This document shows, one piece after another, positions 1 through 10,905 of a stretch of DNA of 26,904 nucleotides. This stretch comes from Clostridium sp. AM58-1XD (GTDB lineage Bacteria > Bacillota > Clostridia > Lachnospirales > Lachnospiraceae), in NCBI RefSeq assembly GCF_003464085.1, contig NZ_QSDR01000046.1, forward strand, positions 1 through 26,904, read 5' to 3'. The translations under genes were made by a program, and so were the position numbers. The notes under the pieces were generated by a model. That model saw only the letters and a list, made by a program, of their open reading frames with translations, ran no database searches and had not been told where the DNA came from. Numbering within the stretch: the first letter of the stretch is position 1; each line of letters begins with the position of its first letter.

Positions 1-474
1 AATCACCCAGTAGGGCCGGGAAGGCCCCTGAATTCCCCTGAGGACCCTGCAAGCCCTGCAGACCTTGTGGTCCGGCTGGTCCACGCTCTCCCGCCGGGCC
101 GGGAAGGCCCCTGAATTCCCCTGAGGACCCTGCAAGCCCTGCAGACCTTGTGGTCCGGCTGGTCCACGCTCTCCCGCCGGGCCGGTCGGGCCTGCGGGCC
201 CCTGAATCCCCTGGGGACCGGCGGCTCCCACTTGACCGGTCGGGCCCTGAGGGCCCTCGGGACCGGTGGGTCCGGCGATTCCCTGATATCCCTGAGGCCC
301 AGGAGGTCCCTGAACTCCTCGTGGTCCGGCCGGACCCTGTTCTCCCCGAGGACCGGCCGGACCCTGAATTCCCTGTGGGCCAGGAGGTCCCTGACATACG
401 CTGCAACAGCACGGGCACCCGCAGCCAACCGGCTTGCGGAGGTCATTTGCATTTCCTTCTCCGTATTGATTCAT
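1..474 (-). CDS. Collagen-like Gly-X-Y repeat protein, 3' end beyond window
   Basis: The ATG at 474-472 follows an AGAGGT ribosome-binding site. The first 27 or so residues include a Cys-rich stretch ([10 protein letters not shown]), then a long run of Gly-X-Y triplets ([18 protein letters not shown] and similar) typical of bacterial collagen-like surface or spore-surface proteins. Triplets run unbroken from about residue 29 to residue 122. An 83-bp unit then occurs twice (13-178), and because 83 is not a multiple of 3 the Gly-X-Y register is lost inside the first copy met by the ribosome. The start frame stays open to the window edge but reads as Arg-rich non-collagen sequence; Gly-X-Y is resumed only in another frame. 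The gene has no partner: upstream is a long structured intergenic region. Surface or exosporium location is inferred from the family. I saw no signal peptide. Confidence 0.75.
13..185. repeat. 83-bp tandem repeat, two copies plus 7 bp
   Basis: Bases 13-95 and 96-178 are identical, and 179-185 (GGGCCGG) begins a third copy that then diverges. The unit encodes 27 Gly-X-Y-type codons (81 nt) plus 2 nt, so each copy shifts the reading frame of the collagen-like gene. It may be a real contingency repeat or an assembly or indel artefact. Confidence 0.9.
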
Positions 475-475
475 A

Positions 476-514
476 TCATACCTCTAAGATTTTCATGTTA
501 CTACTAAGGTATGA
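476..514 (-). promoter_or_regulatory. Hairpin overlapping the ribosome-binding site of the collagen-like gene
   Basis: TCATACCT (476-483) and AGGTATGA (507-514) are perfect 8-bp inverted repeats separated by 23 nt. In the minus-strand transcript the downstream arm contains the AGGT of the ribosome-binding site just before the ATG at 474. Folding would therefore bury the site. A regulatory role is inference. Confidence 0.4.
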
Positions 515-760
515 CGTGCCCTTTCGTCTGGTGTTCCGCCACATGCCAATTTCCGTTCGCCTCAGCGACATAAATCCGTTCACGCGAGTGCGCCTGCCCG
601 ATCATGCGGGCCACGCTGTCCATAGCGAAGCGCTTTTTACTTTTCAGGAATCAAACGTTTTAACGCTTTATAAGAACAATGTCTTTCTTACCGCCGCAGG
701 GCGACCCTGCCCGGAGGGCTTTTTTGTTACATTGGATAGTTCGGAGAACTTTCCTAGTGT
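515..760. other. Intergenic region with palindromes, no convincing gene
   Basis: No protein gene with a believable start is visible here. Small inverted repeats include GCCCG/CGGGC (596-600/607-611), GCAGGG/CCCTGC (696-701/705-710) and a near-palindrome around GTTCGGAGAAC (739-749). Two 15-nt segments (557-571 and 687-701) recur in the same order in the comM leader at 6722-6736 and 6742-6756, so this may be a diverged or interrupted copy of a dispersed intergenic element. Confidence 0.5.
705..725 (+). terminator. Weak plus-strand terminator-like hairpin
   Basis: A short GCCC-GGA-GGGC hairpin (709-719) is followed directly by six T residues (720-725) on the plus strand. No plus-strand gene precedes it, so if it functions it ends an unrecognised transcript. 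Confidence 0.35.
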
Positions 761-808
761 AATAAAAAAACGCCCCGGCTTAAGAGGATAAATGACTCAT
801 GCCGGGGC
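761..808 (-). terminator. Rho-independent terminator after codY
   Basis: On the minus strand GCCCCGGC (808-801) pairs with GCCGGGGC (779-772) and is followed by a seven-T tract (770-764). It lies about 90 nt past the codY stop. A second hairpin, GCCGAA/TTCGGC (815-820/834-839), sits just before it. Confidence 0.85.
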
Positions 809-6659: not shown

Positions 6660-6754
6660 GCCGCAGCGTGAAAATTCACAGTCTGCACCCTCACCTGAAT
6701 GGAAAAATGCGCTGCGGCGGGTCGCTTCAGCGACATCATTCCTTACCGCCGCAG
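6660..6754 (-). promoter_or_regulatory. Structured comM leader with alternative stems and terminator-like hairpin
   Basis: On the minus strand CCGCCGCAG complement arms (6754-6746 and 6720-6712, 9 bp) enclose an inner hairpin GTCGCT/AGCGAC (6721-6734), and T5 (6707-6703) follows. This resembles a rho-independent terminator about 80 nt after the distal promoter. The 3' arm can instead pair, also over 9 bp, with 6660-6668 (GCCGCAGCG against CGCTGCGGC at 6710-6718). The alternatives suggest an attenuator, a small RNA or a dispersed palindromic repeat. Confidence 0.45.
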
Positions 6755-6787
6755 GGTAGATTACATGATCACGTGATCTTTCCTGTT

Positions 6788-6816
6788 ATTATAACCGCTC
6801 CTGAAAAAACAATCAA
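6788..6816 (-). promoter_or_regulatory. Strong sigma-A-type promoter for the comM leader
   Basis: Minus-strand TTGATT (6816-6811), 17-nt spacer, perfect TATAAT (6793-6788). Transcription would begin near 6781 and run into the structured leader of comM. It sits directly beyond the 3' end of the hydrolase gene. Confidence 0.75.
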
Positions 6817-6819
6817 TCC

Positions 6820-7782
6820 TTACTTTTTATTTCCTATACGCTCATTGATCCACATGGAGATATCATGGTATACATGCTCTCTGTTTCTTTCATTGAGCAG
6901 TTCATGGCGGCATTCCGGATACAGACGGATATTGACATCAGTAAGCCCCAGCCTGCATAGCTTTCTGTATACACGGCGGACACCTCTTCCTCTGGCACCT
7001 ACAGGGTCCTCCCTGCCCGACAGAATAAGAACCGGCAGATTCTTCGGAATTCTTTTAAGCCAGAAGCTGCTTTTTAAATCCAGCATCGTTTTAAAGAAAT
7101 CCTTATATGCCTGGCAAGTAAAGTGAAAACTGCACATCGGGTCTTCCTGATATTCCCTGACCTTCTTCTCGTCACTTGTCAGCCAGTCACTTGGACAGCC
7201 TACTGGCTTGAACTTTCTGTCGAAATCTCCAAGCACGAGATTATGCAGAAAATAGCTGCGGTAACGCCATCCTTTCCACCTTCCGATCACTCCTACTGCC
7301 GCCCTTCCGGCCAGAAGGATAAACAGCGGCTCGTCCCCCGTGCCCATAAGGATCGCCCCGTCCGCCTCATCTCCATATACCGTCAAATATTTTCTGAGAA
7401 AAAATGATCCCATACTGTGTCCCAAAAAGATGTATGGAAGGTTCGGATAGATTCTTCCGGCGGCTCTCCGGACGCGGTGTATATCACGGACCATAAAAAC
7501 GTCCCCTGACTTCTCCGCAAAAAAGCCATAATCTTCCCTTCTGCTGGTCTTCCCATGCCCAAGGTGGTCATGTCCCACAACGGCAATTCCCTGAGCAGCC
7601 ATCGTTCTTGCAAATTCATCGTATCTTCCGATGTGTTCAATCATACCATGAGAAATCTGAAGGACAGCACGCACCTCTCCATGAGGTTTCCACATGATTA
7701 CGTGCAGTTCTGACCTTCCATCGCTGGATGGCAGGCCGCAATCCGTCCTTACTACTTTCTGCTTTTCATTCTCACCATTCAT
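6820..7782 (-). CDS. Alpha/beta hydrolase, monoacylglycerol-lipase / lysophospholipase-like
   Basis: A 320-residue serine hydrolase of the Hydrolase_4 (PldB/MGL-like) type. The nucleophile elbow GHSMGS places Ser123, and the likely triad partners are Asp259 (SGREDPVG) and His293 (CRHELLNE). The oxyanion region HGMIEHIGRYDEFA and GHDHLGHGKT are standard for monoacylglycerol lipases. I saw no signal peptide, so it is probably cytoplasmic. The ATG at 7782 follows GAGGTG by 8 nt. It lies 21 nt after the DUF4130 gene on the same strand and is probably co-transcribed with the LexA-controlled pair, though a metabolic link is not evident. The exact substrate cannot be told from the sequence. Confidence 0.85.
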   Translation of the reverse strand: MNGENEKQKVVRTDCGLPSSDGRSELHVIMWKPHGEVRAVLQISHGMIEHIGRYDEFARTMAAQGIAVVGHDHLGHGKTSRREDYGFFAEKSGDVFMVRDIHRVRRAAGRIYPNLPYIFLGHSMGSFFLRKYLTVYGDEADGAILMGTGDEPLFILLAGRAAVGVIGRWKGWRYRSYFLHNLVLGDFDRKFKPVGCPSDWLTSDEKKVREYQEDPMCSFHFTCQAYKDFFKTMLDLKSSFWLKRIPKNLPVLILSGREDPVGARGRGVRRVYRKLCRLGLTDVNIRLYPECRHELLNERNREHVYHDISMWINERIGNKK

Positions 7783-7803
7783 ATCTTATACACCTCAATT
7801 GAA

Positions 7804-8568
7804 TTACTGGAATTCTGTCATATACTCCCTGTAGCGCAGCGGAAGAAAATTCCTCTGGCATACAGGATTCGTCCGTTCTTTTACGGCTATACTATGAAAG
7901 AAGCTTTTCCACAAATCCTCGTAGATATCCTTCTCTGAGGCTTTTTTTATTTTTTCTTTCCACTGGCTTCCTTCCGTCCTCACCACCATCCAGCCTTTTC
8001 CCGCCTGATGAACTGCCGCCTTTTCCCTGTTCTCGTCGTACAGAATCCAGTTTTCACCGGAAAGCCTGTCGGAAAAATGTCTTGCCAGAAGGATCAGAAC
8101 GTCGTTTTTCGGCCCGATCGTGCTCACCAGAATACCGCCTTCCATCTGTGAAAAGCGGACGAATCCTTTCAGAAGGTGCGCCTCATTCCTCAGATGGCGG
8201 CACATCTCAAATACATCGAAAACAGCTGGAATCTGCAGCATGTCCACAATCCCGGCTTTATAATGAAATCCATAAATCAGGAAACGATAAATCTTATCGG
8301 CGCGGTCGCTTTTCATGCTCAGAGACGCTTCATATACTACGGCATACGCTTCTTCCGATATCCGTTCCCTAATGGCCCTGGTCACTTTCTCTGCCTTTTC
8401 TTTCGTCACCTCTGCCTTCCTGTATTCACAGAAAAGCTCCGGCTGCCATGACTTCTCCGATTCCAGTCTGACCTGGCTGTGACCAAGACGGCTCATCCAG
8501 ACATCGTAAACGCCGCACAAAATCTCTTCAAATTCTTCTCCGCACAAATACACCGTCATCGGTCCCAT
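7804..8568 (-). CDS. DUF4130 (TIGR03915-type) probable DNA-metabolism protein
   Basis: A 254-residue protein with the hallmark central segment HLRNEAHLLKGFVRF (near residue 130), then a WILYDENREKAAVH stretch and a C-terminal FLPLRYREYMTEF. This family is nearly always encoded beside a radical SAM protein of the TIGR03916 type, and in other bacteria the same domain is fused to a UdgX-type uracil-DNA-binding domain, which is the basis for 'DNA metabolism'. No catalytic motif is recognised. The start ATG at 8568 lies only 6 nt beyond the radical SAM stop, after AGGAAAGG. The biochemical activity of the family is not established as far as I know. Confidence 0.85.
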   Translation of the reverse strand: MGPMTVYLCGEEFEEILCGVYDVWMSRLGHSQVRLESEKSWQPELFCEYRKAEVTKEKAEKVTRAIRERISEEAYAVVYEASLSMKSDRADKIYRFLIYGFHYKAGIVDMLQIPAVFDVFEMCRHLRNEAHLLKGFVRFSQMEGGILVSTIGPKNDVLILLARHFSDRLSGENWILYDENREKAAVHQAGKGWMVVRTEGSQWKEKIKKASEKDIYEDLWKSFFHSIAVKERTNPVCQRNFLPLRYREYMTEFQ

Positions 8569-8574
8569 CCTTTC

Positions 8575-9921
8575 CTACATGCTTCCAAGGGCAGCCATAT
8601 GGTAATCGTCCGCCGCTGGGGGAACGGTCATATGGTAATCGTCAAACAGAGACAGCTGGCGGTAGATATCATGATGCTCCATATCCCAGACCTTCCTCCT
8701 CTCATCTCCAATCAGGTGGGATGTAATTACATCCTGGTCAATCCTGACCGGAAACATCATGCGCCCGCCGCATGTAATAAAATAAGCTGCACGTTTCAGT
8801 ACGACTCCCATCTTCTTCAGATCACCAAAATCCAGAGAGGAACTCTTTCTTGCTGCGATGATTCTCCTGACGGACTTCACACCCATCCCTGGTACGCGGA
8901 GCAATGTATAATAGTCGGCCGAATTCACCTCTATGGGAAAATGTTCCAGATGAGAGACGGCCCAGTCGCACTTGGGGTCCAGAAGTACGTTAAAATTCGG
9001 TTTCTTTTCAGAAAGCAGTTCTCCTGCCTGAAATCCATAATACCGCAGCAGCCAGTCGGCCTGATACAGACGATGCTCCCGAAGAAGGGGCGGACCGCCA
9101 GGCAGGGCAGGTAGAAGGCTGTCGTCATTCACCCTGACAAAAGCGGAATAGAACACTCTCTTCAGCCCATAATTTTTATAAAGCGCCTCCGCTACTGAAA
9201 TCATCTGATAGTCGTTCTCCGGAGTAGCTCCGACGATCATCTGAGTGCTCTGACCTGCCGGCACAAAGGACGGATTCCTCCTGTAAAGCATAAGCTCGTG
9301 ACGGCCTGCTTCGATTCCCCTCTGAATCTGACGCATGGGCGCCAAAATCTTCTCTCTTGTCTTTGCCGGAGCCAGCGTTCTCAGCCCGTCTGCAGTGGGG
9401 AGCTCCAGATTCACGCTCATTCGGTCCGCAAGGAGGCCTGCCTTGTGGATAAGGGCCGGATCTGCTCCTGGAATCGCCTTTACATGAATATATCCCCTGA
9501 ACTGGTACTCGTGGCGCAGTTTCCAAAGAGCCTGACAGATCAATTCCATCGTATAGTCAGGACTGTATAAAATTCCGGAACTCAAAAAAAGGCCTTCAAT
9601 ATAATTACGCCTGTAAAATTCCATCGTCAGAGTACATACCTCTTCCGGCGTAAACGCTGTCCGGACCACATCATTAGAACAGCGGTTAATGCAGTACCTG
9701 CAATCATGAATGCACTGGTTCGTAAAGAGAATTTTAAGAAGCGAAATGCATCGGCCGTCAGCCGCAAAGCTGTGGCAGATTCCACATGCCGTCGCATTGC
9801 CGGTCGTTCCCGTCTTCCCTCTTCTGTCCACGCCGCTGGAGGTGCAGGCCACATCGTACTTGGCTGCATCCGATAAAATCTCCAGTTTTTCTTTTATACT
9901 CAGTTGTTCCTGTATTAACAT
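8575..9921 (-). CDS. Putative DNA modification/repair radical SAM protein (TIGR03916-type)
   Basis: A 448-residue radical SAM enzyme. The [4Fe-4S] motif is C70-x3-C74-x2-C77 (CIHDCRYC), preceded by further cysteines (CGICHSFAADGRC) near residues 46-58. A C-terminal helix-hairpin-helix DNA-binding motif, VPGMGVKSVRRIIAARKS, lies around residue 335. This pairing of radical SAM and HhH domains marks the family linked to DUF4130/UDG proteins. The start is ATG 9921 after AGGTGAT; a TTG one codon upstream is less likely. The last 22 residues contain an in-frame 11-codon duplication (DDYHM twice). LexA-like boxes lie upstream, so SOS control is likely. Substrate and reaction are unknown. Confidence 0.9.
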   Translation of the reverse strand: MLIQEQLSIKEKLEILSDAAKYDVACTSSGVDRRGKTGTTGNATACGICHSFAADGRCISLLKILFTNQCIHDCRYCINRCSNDVVRTAFTPEEVCTLTMEFYRRNYIEGLFLSSGILYSPDYTMELICQALWKLRHEYQFRGYIHVKAIPGADPALIHKAGLLADRMSVNLELPTADGLRTLAPAKTREKILAPMRQIQRGIEAGRHELMLYRRNPSFVPAGQSTQMIVGATPENDYQMISVAEALYKNYGLKRVFYSAFVRVNDDSLLPALPGGPPLLREHRLYQADWLLRYYGFQAGELLSEKKPNFNVLLDPKCDWAVSHLEHFPIEVNSADYYTLLRVPGMGVKSVRRIIAARKSSSLDFGDLKKMGVVLKRAAYFITCGGRMMFPVRIDQDVITSHLIGDERRKVWDMEHHDIYRQLSLFDDYHMTVPPAADDYHMAALGSM

Positions 9922-9942
9922 CAATCATCACCTGCCATCATC

Positions 9943-9956
9943 AGAACGTTTGTTCT
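9943..9956 (-). promoter_or_regulatory. LexA (SOS) box 1
   Basis: On the minus strand AGAACAAACGTTCT fits the Bacillus/Clostridium LexA consensus CGAACRNRYGTTYG at 12 of 14 positions, failing only at the outer bases. It lies just downstream of the -10 element, where a repressor would block initiation. Confidence 0.8.
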
Positions 9957-9961
9957 ATTTC

Positions 9962-9990
9962 ATACTACCACACATGTATTCTGTCCGCAA
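9962..9990 (-). promoter_or_regulatory. Promoter of the radical SAM / DUF4130 operon
   Basis: Minus-strand TTGCGG (-35, near 9990-9985), 17-nt spacer, TAGTAT (-10, near 9967-9962). It is bracketed by the two LexA-like boxes. Confidence 0.55.
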
Positions 9991-10000
9991 GTGTTTTTTT

Positions 10001-10014
10001 CGAAAATATGTTCG
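10001..10014 (-). promoter_or_regulatory. LexA (SOS) box 2
   Basis: On the minus strand CGAACATATTTTCG matches CGAACRNRYGTTYG at 13 of 14 positions. It lies about 10 nt upstream of the -35 element, between the LysR gene end and the operon promoter. Confidence 0.75.
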
Positions 10015-10017
10015 ATG

Positions 10018-10905
10018 TTAATAAGTCTTCGAAAGACCGGATTTATTCTTCAGCCGTTCCACAAGCCACTTAAGGGGGCTAGTCAGTTCTTTTTCCCTGT
10101 GCCAGGCAATACTGATCTCGTTAAAAATCTCAAGGCCTTCCACATGAATCTTTTTCAGCTCTCCCGCCTCTTCTTCCCTCTTTACGAGAATATCCGGCAG
10201 CAGAGCGATACCGAAACCGCTTCTGGCCGCCTGGATCAGCGCCTGAGAATTCACACTTTCCATTGCCGGCACAGCTTCAAAACCTGCCGCGGCCATGGCA
10301 TAATCGAACGAGTCTCTGATTGCGCTCCCCTTTTCTCGTAAAAGCAGCCTGCTCTCAGAGAGTTCTCCCGTCGTCATGCTGCACTTTTTTCCCATCTCAG
10401 GGACGGCAAAAGCCGATATGTGGTAACCGGAAAATACGACATACTCTAGCTGGCGGCTCTTCACCTTCCCCTCCAGAAGCCCCACATCCGCCTGGCAGTC
10501 CAGCAGCTTCTGTTCCACGTCTGAGGTACGTTCCACCTCGATTTTAACAGGAGTATTCTTCCATCGTTCTGAAAAATCCCTCAATAGTTCCGGCAGCCAG
10601 AAATTAGCTGCGGTAATCGCCGTACCAATGGTCACCGGACTGAATTCCTCTGATTCAGAGAATCCTTCAGACAGCTCTTCAAATAATTCAAGAAGCTGTT
10701 TTGTCTTTCCCAAAAACCGTTTTCCTGTCTCATTGAGGTAAAGGCGCCTGGAAATCCTGTCAAACAGCCGGCACCCTGTTTCCTCCTCCAGTTCAGCAAT
10801 CACATGGGATACGGCCGGCTGAGTCATGTAAAGCTTTTCAGCCGCCCTGGTCACGTTTTTTTCCGTGCATACGACTTCAAATATCTGAAGCTGCCGTATA
10901 TTCAT
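10018..10905 (-). CDS. LysR-family transcriptional regulator
   Basis: A 295-residue LysR-type regulator. The N-terminal winged helix-turn-helix (MNIRQLQIFEVVCTEKNVTR, AAEKLYMTQPAVSHVIAELE, residues 1-60) is followed by a periplasmic-binding-protein-like effector domain (about residues 90-290; SGFGIALLPDILV near residue 235). It resembles the CysL/CysB-like branch, but the effector cannot be named. It is divergent from the chromate-transporter pair across 138 nt, the usual layout for a LysR regulator controlling its neighbour. GGAGGAG precedes the ATG. There is no terminator before the radical SAM operon, so some read-through is possible. Confidence 0.9.
   Translation of the reverse strand: MNIRQLQIFEVVCTEKNVTRAAEKLYMTQPAVSHVIAELEEETGCRLFDRISRRLYLNETGKRFLGKTKQLLELFEELSEGFSESEEFSPVTIGTAITAANFWLPELLRDFSERWKNTPVKIEVERTSDVEQKLLDCQADVGLLEGKVKSRQLEYVVFSGYHISAFAVPEMGKKCSMTTGELSESRLLLREKGSAIRDSFDYAMAAAGFEAVPAMESVNSQALIQAARSGFGIALLPDILVKREEEAGELKKIHVEGLEIFNEISIAWHREKELTSPLKWLVERLKNKSGLSKTY

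Follow-up and report, generated by a model that had tools for sequence, protein, structure and literature searches.

The 26,904-nucleotide stretch of Clostridium sp. AM58-1XD DNA analyzed here (contig NZ_QSDR01000046.1; hereafter the window) contains a gene for a radical SAM protein and an adjoining gene for a DUF4130 partner. We found that LexA-type boxes bracket the promoter of this pair and that sites matching three LexA motifs lie upstream of homologous loci in three bacterial groups. This comparison of sequences strongly supports the original prediction that the pair is under LexA control, and membership of the LexA/SOS regulon, as judged by the conserved promoter boxes, is likewise strongly supported. 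That the pair is an SOS-type operon of a known, uncharacterized family is well supported, and it is probably a damage-induced radical SAM DNA-repair operon that is repressed by LexA and whose enzyme is recruited to the replication clamp. LexA control is in turn a separate line of evidence for an action of the pair on damaged DNA. The genes and promoter elements are as follows.

8575-9924, minus strand: radical SAM protein of family TIGR03916/COG4277 (rSAM_link_UDG), 449 aa from a TTG at 9924.
7804-8568, minus strand: DUF4130/TIGR03915 partner, 254 aa, adjoining the radical SAM gene.
10001-10014, minus strand: upstream LexA-type box CGAACATATTTTCG, one mismatch to CGAAC-N4-GTTCG, 17.5 bits with a position weight matrix (PWM) built from lexA promoters.
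9985-9990, minus strand: -35 element TTGCGG; TTG[CA] is kept in 36/36 sequences of the same layout.
9962-9970, minus strand: extended -10 element TGG-TAGTAT; TGn precedes the -10 in 33/36 sequences of the same layout.
9943-9956, minus strand: downstream LexA-type box AGAACAAACGTTCT, two mismatches to CGAAC-N4-GTTCG, 15.0 bits with the lexA-promoter PWM.

The radical SAM protein scored 681 bits against the NCBIfam model TIGR03916 (cut-off 343.5) and may start at the ATG at 9921 rather than at the TTG. The partner scored 257 bits against TIGR03915 (NCBIfam, cut-off 112) and 172 bits against DUF4130 (Pfam, cut-off 27); these were its only matches to the NCBIfam and Pfam profiles, and it has no match to a uracil-DNA glycosylase (UDG) domain (UdgX, TIGR03914).

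Both boxes that had been proposed were located, with one and two mismatches, and the promoter TTGCGG-17-TAGTAT was found between them at 9962-9990, with TGn ahead of the -10. The upstream box lies 3 bp from the stop codon of a LysR gene, with 10 bp between it and the -35 element; the downstream box would cover the expected transcription start, a classical position for a repressor. On their own the boxes in the window prove nothing, because the whole window contains 6 sites with at most two mismatches to CGAAC-N4-GTTCG and 10.4 are expected from shuffling; it is their conservation that makes them convincing. The promoter was similarly accepted because its layout is conserved among relatives: a simple sigma-70 scan requiring at least 9 of 12 matches did not list it, as its hexamers are too weak.

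We assessed conservation in two samples of Bacillota loci. Set A comprises the best 80 of 586 relatives in species genomes, whose titles mostly, but not always, name Lachnospiraceae or a genus of that family, and is therefore biased toward close kin. Set B comprises 46 loci. For this set 199 genomes were sampled evenly across the phylum to which G001 belongs; 45 of them have the family above cut-off, and G049, which is just below it, was added. One locus of set B, G001, is identical to L002. The pair is widespread: besides these 45 of 199 genomes, there are 158 plasmid records, and the family search also gave a match in Caulobacter. A site with at most two mismatches to CGAAC-N4-GTTCG was present in 80/80 upstream regions (79 loci and the window; the upstream region of L047 is too short). 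Controls with permuted half-sites gave a mean of 8.6/80; the highest, AGCAC (39/80), was the sole strongly enriched one (12 and 39 of 80).

To avoid circularity, a motif was also built from lexA promoters alone. A search for palindromes in 30 lexA promoters, which came from the genomes of four relatives and from the family of one of these four (the lexA loci L130, L140, and L152 were excluded for a contig-edge frame), returned CGAACATATGTTCG as the best palindrome; it occurs in 29/30 promoters (135 sites) and was reached from 39 of 150 random starts. The PWM from these sites was thresholded at 9.1 bits, corresponding to 1e-4 per position on the radical SAM enzymes' own coding DNA. Three loci with too short an upstream region (L047 and L052 in set A, L112 in set B) were excluded from the scan. 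A lack of LexA boxes at homologous loci had been named beforehand as one half of a test that would refute the prediction. The outcome spoke against refutation: sites were found upstream of the radical SAM gene in 78/78 close relatives of set A, 73 of which have at least two, and in 37/45 loci of set B; base-shuffled upstream regions gave 1–4/78 and 0–4/45, respectively. No site was found at eight set B loci: L101, L108, L114, L118, L121, L162, L170, and L174. Of the 45 genomes in which lexA was looked for, two (G042:C1 and G175:C110) have it on the contig of the radical SAM gene, at a distance of about 3 kb.

The arrangement of the boxes is also recurrent. Neighboring boxes in set A and the window give 81 spacings, of which 22 are 24–26 bp and 37 are 55–61 bp. 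The last two boxes are 54–62 bp apart in 36 sequences (the window and 35 of the 78 relatives scanned), and every one of these has a promoter of the form TTG[CA]nn-N16-18-TAnnnT between the boxes; shuffles gave 0.5. Boxes, some with two mismatches, were also seen at Pusillibacter, Lachnospira, and Acetoanaerobium records and on one phage-labelled faecal scaffold. An asymmetric box, CGAACRTATGTGCT, recurs in L072, L073, L074, and L079, about 66–69 bp upstream of the match start, and in L072 and L128 the end of this box runs into the -10. On a Pusillibacter faecalis plasmid, a 42-aa open reading frame with no NCBIfam match (L090:3882-4010) separates three LexA-type boxes from the radical SAM gene.

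In other groups LexA recognizes different DNA, and in Alpha- and Betaproteobacteria the upstream sites match the motif used there. The E. coli-type motif is CTGT-N8-ACAG (PMC4234289). LexA of Betaproteobacteria also uses it, and we found it, without mismatch, upstream in both Caballeronia records. The alphaproteobacterial LexA motif is given as GTTC-N7-GTTC in the excerpts of PMC8565304. In a sample of 13 genera hand-picked from the 158 plasmid records, with one record each (Sulfitobacter, for example, is outside the sample), the exact repeat (GAAC-N7-GAAC or GTTC-N7-GTTC) was present within 200 bp upstream in 13/13, and within 50 bp in 12; the background of 1 exact match in 78,966 bases corresponds to 0.0025 expected per locus. 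In Acinetobacter (two records), Bacteroides, Fusobacterium, and Gemmatirosa we found only loose matches, and in Phocaeicola none, the SOS motif of these organisms not having been established here. In Gemmatirosa, the alphaproteobacterial repeat occurs with one mismatch; the other loose matches were CTAA-N5-TTAG with two mismatches in Acinetobacter, Bacteroides, and Fusobacterium; CGAAC-N4-GTTCG with two mismatches at -268 in Bacteroides; and a long UmuDAb-like palindrome with about four mismatches in several of the organisms with loose matches. A record labelled as Acinetobacter phage MD-2021a (240 kb) and an Acinetobacter plasmid record (L123 and L122) share a glyS-glyQ-radical SAM-DUF4130-HPP neighborhood, which looks chromosomal.

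As the boxes are assigned to LexA by sequence, they might be sites of another regulator that recognizes a GAAC-N4-GTTC-like motif. Against this, their motif is the one present in 29/30 lexA promoters, and the alpha- and betaproteobacterial sites match the LexA motifs known in those groups; we consider this explanation extremely improbable.

SOS control as such is already known for a system described as UDG-based, and the statement of the original prediction that the family is tied to DNA metabolism only by gene neighborhood and fusions, and with it the novelty that it assumed, was therefore partly wrong. In the excerpts of PMC8565304, SOS regulation of a two-gene COG1573-COG4277 system, described as UDG-based repair, is evidenced in Bacteroidetes, and earlier reports of SOS control are cited for Verrucomicrobia (Erill 2016) and Alphaproteobacteria (da Rocha 2008). 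An excerpt of PMC3765255 (2013) predicts DUF4130 to be a mutagenesis-related enzyme and groups it with UDG and SplB-like radical SAM proteins in a network of SOS genes. These two were the only papers found in open-licence full text for TIGR03915, DUF4130, COG4277, rSAM_link_UDG, and PF13566; none was found there for TIGR03916 or for UdgX with radical SAM, searches of this literature did not reveal what the radical SAM protein does, and radical SAM and DUF4130 are absent from the main text of a paper on the C. difficile LexA regulon. The COG1573-COG4277 operon contains the same radical SAM family as the window. In contrast to that operon, the window pair has a partner without a UDG match and uses the Bacillota LexA box, and it has a clamp-type peptide and three extra cysteines (both described below) that the excerpts of PMC8565304 do not mention. 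Control of the UDG-less Bacillota pair, the peptide, the cysteines, and a DHH-like model of DUF4130 were not found in these searches of the open-licence literature.

The published description raises the alternative that the system is centered on UDG-initiated base excision repair, with the radical SAM protein as an accessory. The partners of Phaeobacter, Azospirillum, and Caballeronia do match TIGR03914/UDG. Those of the window, Pusillibacter, Bacteroides, and Acinetobacter do not, yet the pair persists in these organisms, with LexA boxes in Bacillota; the published partners may not all carry UDG, the Bacteroides record examined here having no match. Furthermore, the radical SAM protein is better conserved than DUF4130: across set A loci, where the partner is present at 78/80, the median best-hit identity to the window is 68% for the former and 38% for the latter. 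A UDG-centered system is thus unlikely. The comparison shows UDG to be optional to the pair, and the pairs that lack it suggest that the core of the system is the radical enzyme rather than a glycosylase.

Four segments of the radical SAM protein bear on how it might act.

9691-9714, minus strand: radical SAM cluster motif CX3CX2C (C71, C75, C78), kept in 150/150 aligned relatives.
9748-9846, minus strand: stretch with the extra conserved C27, C50, and C59 (and H51), a possible auxiliary cluster.
8845-8907, minus strand: helix-hairpin-helix (HhH)-type segment (RVPGMG), identified by alignment.
8644-8658, minus strand: QLSLF (residues 423–427), a beta-clamp-binding-type peptide in a low-confidence tail.

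The tail of the window protein reads YRQLSLFDD, and its Gln is invariant within an otherwise variable C-terminal region: the aligned Gln423 is retained in 149/150 relatives. According to the excerpts of PMC4549789, the beta-clamp consensus at a C-terminal end is QLxLF, so that QLSLF is a full consensus. We searched the last 75 residues of the proteins of set A, set B, 24 other records, and 120 database proteins (from one Caballeronia query, all at least 75% identical to it). Exact QLxLF occurs in 44/80, 16/46, 9/24, and 1/120, respectively, compared with 0.12, 0.13, 0.05, and 0.10 in shuffled tails, and the stricter QL[SD]LF in 39/80, 11/46, 7/24, and 0/120. A wider penta-/hexapeptide pattern, chosen after the misses of a narrower one (77/80, 13/24, 99/120) had been seen, matches 77/80, 37/46, 23/24, and 120/120, compared with 6.1, 3.3, 1.6, and 9.6 in shuffles and with 12/623 body windows of the first three sets. 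The 13 proteins of these three sets that lack the wider pattern carry QLSFF (seven), QPSLF (two), QLSFL, QLSFI, or PMSLF, except L162, which has none. The AlphaFold predicted local distance difference test score is below 50 at residues 415–436, which fits the expectation for a free docking peptide. The family thus has a conserved C-terminal peptide of the QLxLF type, through which the enzyme would dock on the clamp, DnaN. Clamp action is also predicted, in excerpts of PMC10421592 and PMC11791113, for ImuB of a damage-inducible cassette; ImuB is a polymerase-type protein, whereas the window enzyme is a radical SAM protein.

The HhH assignment is supported by an HHH_3 match just above cut-off in relative P0241 and by weak profile matches to ComEA and RuvA (E values of 0.0017 and of 0.03 upward). 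C27, C50, and C59 are all kept in 148/150 aligned relatives and perhaps form a second Fe-S or metal site; L174 lacks C50, and L127, a divergent member on a Gemmatirosa plasmid, lacks all three and retains CX3CX2C and a clamp-type QLSLW. Among the 50 rows of the fold list, lipoyl synthase (LipA/LIAS) and HydE are on top, about tied, at sequence identities of 12–17%. These enzymes share the radical SAM core fold with the window enzyme, which differs from them in its HhH, its DUF4130 partner, and its LexA boxes.

Lipoyl synthase has three N-terminal auxiliary-cluster cysteines ahead of CX3CX2C, with the spacing CX4CX5C. The comparable position of C27, C50, and C59, together with the rank of lipoyl synthase in the fold list, is what could be expected if the pair modified bases at the fork in a signaling or protective role, for example by sulfur insertion, rather than repairing lesions. 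The spacing of the three cysteines is different, and their region is poorly modelled. Against base modification, the core is generic, because MqnE, HydG, ThiH, NosL, and PFL-activase share the fold list with HydE; L127 dispenses with the cysteines; and damage-linked control suits repair better. Base modification of this kind is unlikely.

Another possible reading is reversal of photolesions in the manner of spore photoproduct lyase (SplB). Among radical SAM enzymes, SplB is the one known to act on DNA, and the enzymes associated with DUF4130 are termed SplB-like in the PMC3765255 excerpt. The excerpts of PMC8565304 describe SplB (COG1533), likewise a radical SAM protein in DNA repair, as SOS-regulated in several species. 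The window enzyme belongs to a different COG, also carries an HhH, the three additional cysteines, and the clamp-type peptide, and has DUF4130 as its partner. No SplB row was present among its NCBIfam matches or among the 50 fold rows listed, although absence from the fold rows is not decisive, and many relatives are titled like gut bacteria, which have little exposure to UV. We regard a photolesion enzyme as quite improbable.

The DUF4130 model resembles DHH-DHHA1 folds of the RecJ/Cdc45/NrnA type with modest scores, and no solved relative was found by sequence. In contrast to those proteins, DUF4130 is shorter, and among its residues 1–128 no Asp or His, as a candidate metal ligand, reaches 90% conservation; the residues invariant in 14 diverse members are R138, F139, P153, F165, R168, R232, P243, and E252. 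The most likely role of DUF4130 is that of a scaffold, with a reduced DHH/Cdc45-like fold, that binds nucleic acids or proteins, rather than that of a metal phosphoesterase.

As in the SOS response generally, where RecA triggers cleavage of LexA, damage would relieve the repression that LexA, bound at the two boxes bracketing the promoter, is predicted to exert on the pair. The induced radical SAM enzyme would then dock on DnaN through QLSLF, contact DNA through its HhH, and process damaged nucleotides at or behind forks by means of a 5'-deoxyadenosyl radical, with possible assistance from another Fe-S or metal site at C27/C50/C59 and with DUF4130 as a scaffold beside it. In Alpha- and Betaproteobacteria, the UdgX domain of the partner may serve as an optional module for recognition of uracil or abasic sites. 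The chemistry may be radical lesion repair or base modification. The most specific version, replication-coupled radical repair by a clamp-riding, damage-induced enzyme with a lipoyl-synthase-like second Fe-S site, a Cdc45-like pseudo-DHH scaffold in DUF4130, and an optional UdgX, is tentative. If it is true, the enzyme might repair a lesion class or insert sulfur into damaged bases, and it would be, to our knowledge, the first radical SAM enzyme to act on DNA at the replisome. LexA-type control through three motifs and a conserved clamp-type peptide replace 'putative DNA modification/repair' with a specific model of damage-induced, clamp-recruited radical chemistry on DNA, and the peptide and the control of a UDG-less pair make the function directly testable.

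The gene upstream of the pair is separated from it by a 93-bp gap on the minus strand.

10018-10905, minus strand: LysR gene, upstream neighbor of the radical SAM gene.

This gene and a neighboring hydrolase gene were considered as parts of the system and rejected, because each occurs at just 5/80 loci (one LysR match at 22% identity). No terminator-like site was found within 6700-10300 of the window. At the left edge of the window (3-791), both strands carry overlapping open frames rich in Gly/Pro/Arg, which possibly represent a collagen-like repeat.
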